DNA of 55,498 bases from positions 1 through 55,498 of the forward strand of contig JAFYLZ010000001.1 in assembly GCA_017556795.1 (NCBI GenBank). Reading direction: 5' to 3'. The position numbers were made by a program, and so were the translations under genes. Positions 504 to 17,304 of this stretch are shown here, in pieces. Each line of letters starts with the position of its first letter. The first letter of the stretch is position 1. Below the pieces are notes generated by a model, which saw only the letters and a list, made by a program, of their open reading frames with translations, did not search any database and had not been told where the DNA came from. The DNA comes from Candidatus Saccharimonadota bacterium (lineage in GTDB: Bacteria > Patescibacteriota > Saccharimonadia > Saccharimonadales > Saccharimonadaceae).

Positions 504-3500
504 GTGAAAACGCAAAACAAACATTTTTGCTTGTCGTCCTATCGGGTACCGATGACCTTTTTGTTCCCTATTAGCATATTTATACTAGTTATTTTCGGCA
601 TCTTATCTCTATCCCCAATCGTTATCCCAGGAGTCAACGCCGAAGGAATCGTGGCCAGCAACTCTATTGCCATCACTGCACCAGATATCGATCTCGACAT
701 CAACCCAGCCAACCGCCTTACCGTTGGCAAAAATACAGTTTCGATTTCCGCTAGCCCGGCCTCTGGTTACGAACTATATATTTCTACTACTGAACAAAAT
801 ATGTATTTAGATGGCGACAACACCGACACCCGCAAAATCTCCCCTACTACTGGCACTTATGAATCGCCAGCTGCAATTTATAGCGAGTCTTTCCCAGCCT
901 GGGGTTATGCCGTTGCCGGACTAGACAACTTTAGTCCAAGCTACAGCACCACGAACCCAAGCTCTTCTTCGAAATTCGCCGCCGTGCCAACCACCGAACA
1001 GCTTATCGCCAGTACCGAATCCGCTATCACCACCGACTCAATCGACGTCTACTATGGTGTCAAAAACAACAACGAGCTTATTGCTGGCGATTATTCTACT
1101 ACCGTTATATATACCGCCGTCGGCACTGCCGAACCATCCACCCCAAAAGCCATCCTCGGCAACAACGGCAACCTTAGTTTCGTCTACGATAATCTCTCCT
1201 ACACGACAGGCGATACGTACACCGACAACATCGGAGATACTACAATTTATAGAGTCTACTCTGTGCCAACTAATTCGAGCTCCAGATACGACACCGCGTG
1301 GGTCGCCCAAGAAAGGGTCACTTCCGTTTATATTAACCCTAATTTCCACGACTTCAAACCAACCAGCACGGCCTATTGGTTCTATAGCTTAAACCGCGTC
1401 ACCTCATTTGTGGGCATCAACAACCTTGACACCAGCGAAGTAACCAATATGGCCTACATGTTCTATAGGCTCAGTTATTCCAATGCCTGGTGCGGCCTCG
1501 ATCTCACCAACTTCTACGTTGGCAAAGTCACTAACATGACCAGAATGTTTGAGTGGGTTTCCCGCGGCGACGGCAATCCTTGGACCATTGGCGATATTAG
1601 CGGCTGGGACGTCAGCAAAGTTCAAGATATGTCATATATGTTTAACTCTGCCGGCAAGGGTGCAGGTTCTTGGTCCATTGGCGACATCAGTGGTTGGGAC
1701 ACTGGTAGCGTCACCAATATGGCCTTTATGTTCATCGAGGCTGGCTACAACGCATCAACCTGGGACATTGGAGACATCGGTAAATGGGATGTCAGCAAAG
1801 TCCAAAACATGTCATATATGTTCAAAGATGCTGGTTACAATGCTACCAACTGGAACATCGGTAATCTAGGCTACGTTGACACCGACCATCCGGGCTGGAA
1901 TACCGAAAACGTCACGACTATGTTATCTATGTTTGAAGAGGTGAACTGTAAAGATGTAGACTGGACTATTGGCGATATCGGCAGCTGGGATGTTGGCAAA
2001 GTAGAAAATATGGCCAACATGTTCAAAAATGCTGCCACCGCCAACAACATGGCATCGTGGACTCTTGGTGATCTTAACGGCTGGGATGTAAGCAGCGTTA
2101 AAGATATGTCCTACATGTTCTATCAAACCGCCTACAGGGCGTCGGCCTGGTCCATCGGCAACCTTGGCTATATCGACGAAGACCACCCTGGTTGGAATCC
2201 TGAAAATGTTACCACCATGGAAAGTATGTTCCAGAACGTCGCCAGAGACAAGACTATGGCTGCCTGGACCATTGGTGATATTGGTAGCTGGAATGTCGGC
2301 AAAGTTACCACTTTCGCCAATATGTTTGCTAGCGCTGGGTACAACGCCTCTAGCTGGAGCGTTGGTAATCTGGGCTACATCGACAATGATCACCAGGGCT
2401 GGGATACTAGTAGCGCCATCTATATGAACGGTATGTTCCAAAGCGCCGGCTATAAGTCATCCAGTGCTAGCCTTGGAGATATCTCTAGCTGGAACGTTGG
2501 CAGCGTAGAAAACATGTCTAATATGTTCAACTCCTTTGGCTGTCTCGCGTCCAGTTGGAGTATCGGAAGCCTGTCTACCTGGGACACTAAAAACGTTAAA
2601 AACATGAGTGGCATGTTCTATAACGCCGGATACTCAGTTACTACATCATGGAGTCTTAATGTCAGTGCCTGGAACGTCAAAAAGGTTTCCAATATGACTG
2701 ATATGTTTAGACGAGCCGGTTATAGCGCTAGACAGTCATTTACTCTAGACGTCTCCAACTGGGAAACCGACAGCGTCACCCAATTAGCCAATATGTTTAG
2801 AGAGGCCGGTTACAAAGCCACTTCTTGGAGCATCGGCAACCTTAACGGCTGGAATGTTAGTGCAGTCCAAAATTTCGAGTCCATGTTCGATTCCGCCGGA
2901 TATAGTGCCGCCTCCTTTAGTCTCGGCAATCTCGGCTATATTGATAGTGACCACCAGGGCTGGCGAACCCTTGCTGCCACCAATATGAAACACATGTTTT
3001 CGGCCTGCGGCCACGAAGCCAGCTCTTGGTACATTGGTGACCTTAGCAAGTGGAGCCTTTCCAATGTTCAATATGCACAAGGCATGCTTAGATATATCGC
3101 TCATTCAGCTACCTCCTGGAGTATTGGCAATATTAAAGACTGGGACACCAGCAACATCACAGATATGAGCTATATGTTCGAGGAAGCCGGTTACAAAACT
3201 ACTGATTGGGCTATTGATGTTTCGAACTGGAACGTTGCCAAGGTCACCACTTTTGAAAACATGTTCTATAAGGCCGGCTATCAATCTGACTCTTGGTCTA
3301 TCACTGGTATCGAAAATTGGAGATTTAACACTACATCGTCAGTCTCTTTTAAACTCATGTTTTATGGTGCAGGGTACGGAGCTACCTCCTGGAGCATCGG
3401 CAGCCTCAACGACTGGAATGTTGGCAAGGTAACAAATATGCAGGCCATGTTCTCTGGTGCCGGACATGGAGCCAACACCTGGACCATCGGCGATATTAGC

Positions 3501-11880: not shown

Positions 11881-12234
11881 TTAAACCTTTTTGTAGACCA
11901 AAAATCCCACCAAAAACAGAAAAATCGCGATTAATCCTATCGTCCAGATAGAAATCGCGCCAAACGACCTCGCCATTAGCAGCATAATTGGCCCAAAAGT
12001 AATCACTGTTGCATAGAGATAATCTTTTCCCGTCAATTCCTTCTTTTTACTAGCCATGCGGCAGAACACGCTCATCAGGAAGCTCACGATGCCAAAGATT
12101 ACAATAAACAATGTTGTAAAAAATAACAAAACCCCGAACGGCCCTACTTCCGTCGGAGATGTTAGGTTAAGCACAAGAATGAGTCCTGCGAGTCCAATCA
12201 TGCTTATGCTTAATATGATACGGCTACGTTTCAT
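11881..12234 (-). CDS. Hypothetical four-helix membrane protein
   Basis: 117 residues from ATG 12234 (119 from ATG 12240). Four hydrophobic segments at about 7-24, 35-60, 75-92 and 95-113, separated by short charged loops. No family recognised. TATAAT lies at 12241-12246, directly touching the first ATG and 6 nt before the second, so the second ATG is probably the 5' end of a leaderless mRNA. It is 17 nt upstream of the next gene and probably forms an operon with the ATPase pair. Confidence 0.7.
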   Translation of the reverse strand: MKRSRIILSISMIGLAGLILVLNLTSPTEVGPFGVLLFFTTLFIVIFGIVSFLMSVFCRMASKKKELTGKDYLYATVITFGPIMLLMARSFGAISIWTIGLIAIFLFLVGFLVYKKV

Positions 12235-12269
12235 AGCCATATTATAACACGTTTATGGTTAATTCCCCC

Positions 12270-12635
12270 AAGTTTATATGGAGAAAGCGGGAGGTTATCC
12301 GGCACCTAAAACATTACTATTGACCGCAACCTTGATCCCGCATTTCTCTTTTGACCGCTTCACGTATAGTGAAGCATTGATCCTTATTAGCCTTTTCTAT
12401 CTACTCTGGTTTATGTTTCCCCCGAATGTGCTAGTAGAAGATTTGCTAACGCGCTCGACGCTTATCTTATGACTCGGTAACGGAGTTACTTGTCATAAGA
12501 CTTAGCGGAGCTTGAGGTTATTCCTATATTGTAATTTATGGCTAGAAATAACCTGTTCGCCCGCTAAGTGTTTTCTATGGTTTTCTCATGTTAAATTGCC
12601 TTTTGTTTTAAGTTTTTATTTTAGTCATCTCGACT
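12270..12635 (-). ncRNA. Candidate large structured RNA (unassigned)
   Basis: Read on the minus strand from a strong promoter (12642-12670). Hairpins in order: E, 8 bp (12561-12568 with 12501-12508) plus 8 bp (12547-12554 with 12515-12522); D, 9 bp (12492-12500 with 12465-12473) capped by 5 bp; C, 5 bp plus 6 bp (12445-12449 with 12387-12391; 12433-12438 with 12400-12405); B, 7 bp with a 5 nt loop (12357-12375); A, 12 bp with one bulge (12336-12348 with 12281-12292). Hairpins D and E abut. No ORF with a ribosome site crosses the region. It is not tmRNA, RNase P RNA or tRNA, and I see no SRP signature. The 3' end is uncertain; no T-run is visible, so it may be processed or read into the 12234 gene. 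Confidence 0.6.
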
Positions 12636-12641
12636 GCCTTC

Positions 12642-12670
12642 ATATTAGCATAAAAACTATGATTTTTCAA
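12642..12670 (-). promoter_or_regulatory. Promoter of the 12.3-12.6 kb RNA candidate
   Basis: On the minus strand TTGAAA (12665-12670), a 17 nt spacer ending in TGC, and TAATAT (12642-12647). An inverted repeat (12680-12696) sits just upstream of the -35. Confidence 0.65.
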
Positions 12671-12679
12671 GGTATTTTT

Positions 12680-12844
12680 GTACAAAAATGTTGTACTTTT
12701 TACATCATTACCCCCGTTAGTGCCTGAACAACTTATTTTTGCCATTGTTGTATTTTCTACAACAATATCATTCTTTTTAGGCTTATTTCTATACCGTTTA
12801 GGCTTTTTTGGACCATTTTTGTTGTACTTGCCACAACAAAAATG
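12680..12844. repeat. Three inverted repeats sharing a GTTGTA core
   Basis: Site 1: GTACAA/TTGTAC with 5 nt between (12680-12696). Site 2: ATTGTTGTA/TACAACAAT, perfect 9 bp arms, 5 nt apart (12744-12766). Site 3: perfect 12 bp arms (12814-12825 and 12833-12844) with 7 nt between. They lie upstream of the RNA promoter, so they could be operator sites or hairpins. Open frames across them are low-complexity and not convincing. Confidence 0.5.
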
Positions 12845-16980: not shown

Positions 16981-17304
16981 CGAGCTCTCAGTAAGCCGGG
17001 TTCTGTAGCCAAAAGGCCGACAATCATCTATCTAGGCCATAGATTGCTCCATGGCTCGAGCGGTAAGCGTGCGTCCTCGAGTCAAGGCTAATAGCACTCC
17101 TTGCAACCGGTAGGGTTTGCCGCCAGAGCGTATCGCTACACCCTGCTGTGGGCTCTTACCCCACTCTTTTCACCATCACCCCGAAGGGCAGTTTTGTTTC
17201 TGTGGTACTTTCCCTATTCTTACGAACGGTCGCCGTTAGCGACTACCGTACTCTGTGTTGCCCGGACTTTCCTCTTTAAAAAGCGATTGTCTTTCGAGCT
17301 CCCC
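16981..17304 (-). ncRNA. rnpB: RNase P RNA
   Basis: About 324 nt. On the minus strand it holds the universal GAGGAAAGTCCGGGC near the 5' end, a central region with GGTAAGAGCCCACAGC-type sequence, and the 3' part with ACAGAACCCGGCTTA. The ends GAGCTC (17296-17301) and GAGCTC (16982-16987) pair as helix P1. This is the catalytic RNA that trims tRNA 5' leaders. Its 5' end touches the stop codon of the upstream Nudix-RNase H gene, so its promoter must lie inside that gene's 3' end or it is cut from that message. Confidence 0.95.

Follow-up and report, generated by a model that had tools for sequence, protein, structure and literature searches.

A conserved structured RNA of Saccharibacteria with a loop complementary to the infA start region, a probable antisense repressor of IF1 synthesis

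The window analysed here is a 55,498-nt stretch of a Candidatus Saccharimonadota bacterium (assembly GCA_017556795.1, contig JAFYLZ010000001.1). Is an RNA encoded in its gene-free part at 12270–12635, where a preliminary description placed an unassigned multi-hairpin RNA of the minus strand behind a strong extended -10 promoter, and what might such an RNA do? Folding of the minus strand 12250–12640 gave -106.6 kcal/mol, compared with -78.0 ± 5.9 kcal/mol for 100 dinucleotide shuffles, none of which reached it (z = -4.85); the plus-strand fold was weaker (z = -3.3). According to the fold, the alignment of homologues and the covariation, it is near certain that a real structured RNA of ~370 nt is encoded on the minus strand from 12635 to ~12262, the 3' end being approximate. 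The promoter (12642–12670, minus strand) consists of the -35 element TTGAAA (12670–12665) and the extended -10 TGCTAATAT (12650–12642) with a spacer of 17 bp; it is of the consensus type and is kept across the genus homologues in the alignment. Its spacing predicts A12635 as the RNA start, which agrees with the upper bound proposed initially, while the lower bound of 12270 falls slightly short, as the last conserved element ends at 12265. No poly-U terminator was seen at the RNA 3' end, and no conserved ORF spans the region.

The RNA sits between the tmRNA gene (13902–13547, minus strand) and a small membrane-type gene (119-aa ORF, 12240–11881, minus strand), and the RNase P RNA gene is located at 17302–16977 (minus strand); it is thus neither of these two RNAs, as had been supposed. 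The tmRNA gene is found by Rfam (80.7 bits) and missed by ARAGORN. Two TTGTTGTA..ACAACAA inverted repeats (12745–12765 and 12819–12839) precede the RNA promoter, and relatives carry similar TGTTGTA/TACAACA repeats; these may be terminators or operator sites.

Within the window, the search against Rfam 15 identified tmRNA, RNase P RNA and three tRNAs, but no meaningful match at the RNA, even at a relaxed E-value; at the gathering threshold, no family was assigned to the window RNA or to its family or order homologues. The RNA has no tRNA-like domain and no RF00023 match (tmRNA class), no RF00010 match (RNase P RNA class) and neither a long hairpin with a central open bubble nor an RF00013 match (6S class). 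The proposed lack of an SRP motif also holds, with no match to the SRP models and no domain IV motif seen in this RNA, and neither SRP nor 6S models gave a sub-threshold match in 20 minimal homologues. In the whole genome of this bacterium (G000, 96.6% complete), RF00169 and RF01854 found no match at E <= 0.001; the SRP RNA of this genome is either left out of the assembly, divergent in sequence or truly absent.

Homologues were searched with a 420-nt query in 40 genomes using BLAST. The locus was found in 21 of the 24 same-genus genomes examined, with 66–75% identity for near-full-length matches. A pattern scan of named genomes yielded 117 stretches; almost all carry the label Candidatus Saccharibacteria, and most come from metagenomes of animal gut and rumen. 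Two pattern matches, L244 and L267, came from MAGs labelled Aenigmatarchaeota and Nomurabacteria and may represent mis-binning or chance. In the 80 loci examined for synteny, wherever the contig is long enough, the genes keep the order comM – (tmRNA) – RNA – 119-aa protein – TraG/VirD4-like ATPase. No match pointed to a phage or plasmid origin: three 18-mer matches in viral contigs are about the chance expectation, and these contigs have no gene in common with the window.

A 75-pair structure was evaluated over 56 homologues. In this set, 92% of cells pair, and 36 of the 75 pairs are changed on both sides, with a covariation score of 0.267 against 0.142 for shuffled and <=0.10 for slid versions; most of this evidence comes from P3, P4 and P5/P6. 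Compensatory changes in homologous stems, the absence of which the preliminary description named as a refutation, are therefore present, and its reading as a large structured non-coding RNA is supported. All elements below are on the minus strand. A 5' mini-hairpin AGUC-GAGAU-GACU (12623–12635), the order-wide counterpart of which is a 5' hairpin with the loop CACAAAAACAAAAACA, is followed by an A-rich single strand. P1 (12500–12569), supported by covariation, comprises the outer stem ACUUAGCGGGC/GCUCCGCUAAGU and the inner P1b stem AGGUUAUUUCUA/UAGGAAUAACCU; the window's own P1b holds a compensated A-U to U-A swap. P2 (12466–12499) is a variable hairpin CUUAUGAC...GUCAUAAG, and the conserved GCGUCGAGCGC element (12451–12461) was recognised in the alignment and the covariation analysis. 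P3 (12386–12450) is formed by GUUAG/CUAAU and an inner helix with the conserved UAGCACAUU strand, and 14 of its 15 pairs show double-sided changes. The P4 hairpin (12353–12383), GCUUCAC/GUGAAGC with GCGGUCAA, is the counterpart of the order-wide CGCUC..GAGCGGUCAGUC, and the P5/P6 domain (12281–12348), GCGGG..GGUUGCGGUCAAUAGU..GCCGGAUAACC..CCCGC, is that of GGGCGAUAAGCGCU..AGCGGAUUUAUCGCCC. The last conserved part, the 3' element CUUGGGGG (12265–12282), can pair with an upstream CUCC. Two small corrections to the initial description follow: an A-rich leader containing a mini-ORF makes up the first ~65 nt, and P2 is an insertion that many relatives lack.

What could the RNA act on? The BLAST search, which was unbiased in this respect, showed in most genus genomes, besides the locus itself, a recurrent 15–21-nt match at query positions ~116–131, and all nine such places that were read proved to be the infA start in antisense orientation. 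In the window RNA, the segment CUAGCCAUAAAUUAC (12545–12531, minus strand) is a perfect 15-nt complement of the infA site G000:C4:235152–235166; it is antisense to GUAAUUUAUGGCUAG (-7 to +8 relative to the start codon) and spans, with the start codon, the 15 nt with which the infA (IF1) mRNA is predicted to begin. The segment is predicted to be single-stranded, with its last 12 nt unpaired in the P1 loop and a loop unpaired probability of about 0.9 or more. The predicted RNA–infA duplex has an energy of -22.1 kcal/mol (z = -4.6).

Both partners were read in 27 genomes, and the perfect 15-bp complement is found in 16 same-genus genomes, seven g24 genomes and one g99 genome. The infA start is the same in all 19 genus genomes in which infA was read, with one covarying exception. 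In G231 of the same genus, an RNA with ..CAUAGAUUAC faces infA with GTAATCTATGG: the RNA CUAGCCAUAGAUUAC carries A>G and infA GTAATCTATGGCTAG carries T>C, and the 15 bp are retained. RNA–infA covariation within the genus amounts to this one substitution, which also occurs in L264, perhaps of the same lineage. In g24, the infA start region is still matched despite an N-terminal extension of IF1 of ~22 aa; across L089, L093, L095, L097–L100 and L102, this extension is basic, ranges over ~20–25 aa and is absent in the window's genus. In the sister genus g98 (G148, G196, G220), the RNA GCUUCUACUGGCCAUAAAUUACCAUUUU or GCUUCUGUUGGCCAUAAAUUACCAUUUU forms a predicted 26-bp pairing with infA, with one bulged mRNA base, and the changed positions are retained through G-U or U-G wobble. 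The extension there pairs CUUCU(G) with (C)AGAAG, infA using the synonymous Gln codon CAG, not CAA, and the G148 duplex has a z of -6.8. The complementarity to a distant mRNA is thus conserved and maintained via changes on both sides. RNA–infA duplexes in outgroup genera were no better than shuffles, and a search of other genera for an infA-covarying loop gave none among the hits read, GCCATAAGTTAC and GCCATAAATATAAC mostly finding infA itself.

In 27 of 30 infA loci, the hexamer of an extended -10 ends 6–7 nt before GTAATTT, and the remaining three are probably script mis-calls; the infA mRNA should therefore start there, which places the match at the mRNA 5' end. The predicted leader is about 7 nt long and has no Shine-Dalgarno site. 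Order-wide, infA leaders (L031–L060, L287–L293) are likewise very short, lack an SD and lie behind a -10; TGTAA(C/T)TT is common in those of the family and GTTATATTT is frequent in other families. Since genera without a matching RNA likewise keep the leader (C/T)TGTAA(C/T)TT, its conservation has another cause too.

Since both partners are nearly invariant within the genus, the match might be attributed to coincidence or to a constraint shared by the two sequences. This seems most improbable, because a 15-mer at one specific start site is not expected by chance and recurs in four genera, because the double change of G231 and the 26-bp match of g98, with its wobble pairs and synonymous difference, would be left unaccounted for, and because a shared constraint would yield the same strand, not the antisense one. 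The structure of the RNA, its conservation, the complementarity and its maintenance via two-sided changes are all supported by the sequences, and on this basis the RNA very probably does pair with the infA mRNA.

We consider it likely that the RNA is an independently transcribed, trans-acting antisense RNA of ~370 nt that blocks access to the infA start codon. P1b would present a 16–18-nt loop with GCCAUAAAUUAC, which could be extended to CUAGCCAUAAAUUAC by opening the stem top, and CUAGCCAUAAAUUAC would pair with about +1 to +15 of the infA mRNA (GUAAUUU-AUG-GCUAG). Because the infA leader has only ~7 nt and no Shine-Dalgarno site, such a duplex would cover the entire ribosome entry point and decrease IF1 synthesis. 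As both the mRNA 5' end and the AUG would be masked, repression is the likely outcome, and we infer that the RNA probably represses, rather than activates, IF1 synthesis. It is unlikely that the pairing is real but positive, the RNA shielding the infA 5' end from decay or the infA mRNA titrating the core function of the RNA. The complement does begin at the predicted infA +1, and repression and protection are indistinguishable from sequence alone, but a duplex spanning the AUG and the whole 7-nt leader normally blocks initiation and would leave no separate ribosome entry site. IF1 boosts the activity of the other initiation factors and, in vitro, stimulates the translation of leaderless mRNAs (PMC9031893); its level should therefore matter to a cell with short-leadered genes such as infA.

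The leader of the RNA contains a further element. Between the 5' mini-hairpin and P1, a Shine-Dalgarno-like AAAAGG (12599–12604, minus strand) precedes the mini-ORF ATG AGA AAA CCA TAG (MRKP*; 12575–12589, minus strand), which ends just before P1; both were identified in the leader survey, and the SD-like site in the alignment as well. Among distinct genus-type leaders, 92 of 111 contain a mini-ORF and 85 of 111 the SD-like site too, whereas shuffled leaders contain a mini-ORF in 20% of cases and a mini-ORF with SD in 4%. The mini-ORFs have 2–13 codons, mostly begin with MK, are Lys/Arg-rich and mostly end with P, T or K; the stop is most often 23 nt before the loop motif, adjoining P1. In g24, ORFs of at most two codons occur in 4 of 17 leaders, and the mini-ORF is missing in some other loci; as g24 is mostly devoid of it, the mini-ORF is not essential to the whole group. 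A ribosome initiating or terminating at the mini-ORF would touch the base of P1 and, speculatively, could gate the loop. A broader scheme, in which the mini-ORF reports initiation capacity and thereby switches the P1 loop between open and closed, the loop represses IF1 and the whole acts as an initiation homeostat, with other loops and partners on the same chassis in other genera, is doubtful.

The same mini-ORF could be read as a leader peptide and the RNA as a cis-acting leader or attenuator of the downstream 119-aa membrane protein gene, in so far as an SD and a mini-ORF precede the structured region and this gene follows in family loci with sufficient flank. We regard this as improbable, though some read-through into the gene may occur. 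The gene has its own extended -10 TGTTATAAT (12241–12249, minus strand; conserved in relatives), which abuts its start, an anti-terminator or RBS-sequestering arrangement was not seen, the mini-ORF is absent in most of g24 and some other loci, and the infA match would be unexplained. The first ATG of the ORF (12240) abuts the TATAAT -10, and the second ATG (12234, ATGAAACG) lies at the expected transcription start (window positions 12232–12246), so the gene is probably leaderless and begins there.

The antisense loop is carried by an RNA whose core, P4–GGUCAGU(C)–P5/P6, is shared across the Saccharibacteria order. Genera that lack the infA loop have a homologous RNA at the corresponding syntenic position; in these outgroup genera, P1 is closed by another, longer loop that often contains CACGCACCUU, and P4 is AUGCUCC..GGAGCGGUCAGU. 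The shared, exposed CACGCACCUU of the outgroup P1 loop (L270–L324) resembles an anti-Shine-Dalgarno sequence; an extended target for it was not found. Nor is a target claimed for the outgroup CACGCACCTT loop, as the sole perfect 10-bp match in G121 and G160 is the RNA itself. Many f1 outgroup sequences have an upstream ACUGACCG that is able to pair with CGGUCAGU on the 3' side of P4.

A model of the 3' domain of the RNA from genera without the infA loop (R2) matches once per genome in 105 of the 247 genomes searched in the order; within its family, the core lies near tmRNA. In other families, the RNA is reduced to the 5' hairpin with the CACAAAAACAAAAACA loop, P4 CGCUC..GAGCG, the invariant GGUCAGUC and P5/P6 GGGCGAUAAGCGCU..AGCGGAUUUAUCGCCC; in front of P4 there is often an additional variable stretch. 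In this core, 12 of 22 pairs are changed on both sides (score 0.321 against 0.175 for shuffled and 0.10 for slid versions). A model of the reduced core (R3) finds the genus members L076, L014, L018, L020, L016 and L005 at the expected place (E 0.004–0.09). Neither R2 nor R3 matches the 3' domain of the RNA in the window, which has diverged too far, and the homology of this domain with the core is proposed via these relatives. In the phylum-level search, the core was limited to the class, where another order has one likely member, L383 (approx. 1501–1602, minus strand), where GCGGCCGACC replaces GCGGUCAGUC. Weak matches in other classes occurred at the chance rate, one being a plain terminator, and were rejected.

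In the tree of the neighbouring ATPase, the infA-loop genera and g20 form one well-supported group (100/98). As g20 (G105), inside this group, has neither the infA loop nor the GTAAYTT leader, one gain and one loss fit the distribution. Outside the group, the infA leader is mostly GTAACTT with no match to the RNA, and thus the leader was probably conserved before the RNA gained its loop. The core is order-wide, but only one clade has the infA loop, and control of infA is therefore unlikely to have been the original role of the RNA.

It is accordingly quite possible, if short of an even chance, that the RNA is mainly a housekeeping one that binds a protein, RNA polymerase or the ribosome in the manner of 6S, Ms1 or SRP RNA, with the infA pairing as a one-clade add-on. 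The single-copy core across the order, its strong covariation, the invariant GGUCAGUC linker, the restriction of the infA loop and the lack of RF00169 and RF01854 matches in its own genome all fit such a role. It is weakened by the negative results with the SRP and 6S models given above, by the lack of both a single long hairpin with a central bubble and the SRP domain IV motif, and by the retained infA match, which it does not explain. A housekeeping role is compatible with antisense control of infA and does not exclude it.

The order-wide core, the infA-complementary loop and the mini-ORF go beyond what could be seen in the window alone. They describe a structured RNA family that is absent from Rfam 15, single-copy across much of the Saccharibacteria order and belongs to a large, poorly studied group of tiny host-dependent bacteria. 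If the proposed action is correct, the RNA sets the amount of IF1 in the cell, and initiation capacity would be set in an unusual way, by an antisense loop acting directly at the very 5' end of an mRNA with hardly any leader. The claim is directly testable, G231 being a natural compensatory mutant pair.

The literature search found nothing on this RNA, no infA-targeting sRNA and no sRNA work on Saccharibacteria. The RNA likely represents a new family; antisense action at a start codon has precedents, and the arrangement is likely without precedent in the literature searched. Like trans-encoded antisense sRNAs acting at start-codon regions, it has its own promoter, a structured body, an exposed complementary loop and a match to the translation start of one mRNA that is kept by compensatory change. 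Unlike them, it is much larger and multi-domain, has an order-wide core and a clade-specific mini-ORF, and its putative target, the mRNA of an initiation factor, is almost leaderless. In RNAIII and the loop-antisense RNAs of plasmid copy-number control, hairpin loops contact mRNA 5' regions, and RNAIII carries a small ORF. The likeness to these long structured RNAs with hairpin loops is one of features, and the small ORF here, unlike that of RNAIII, is a mini-ORF of 2–12 codons. With tmRNA (RF00023), its neighbour of similar size in the family, the RNA has no tRNA-like domain in common. With 6S and Ms1 RNA, the latter traced through Actinobacteria by synteny (PMC9130861), it has in common that it is non-coding, occurs as a single copy throughout a clade and has a strong promoter, but it differs from them in having no long hairpin with a central bubble and no Rfam match.
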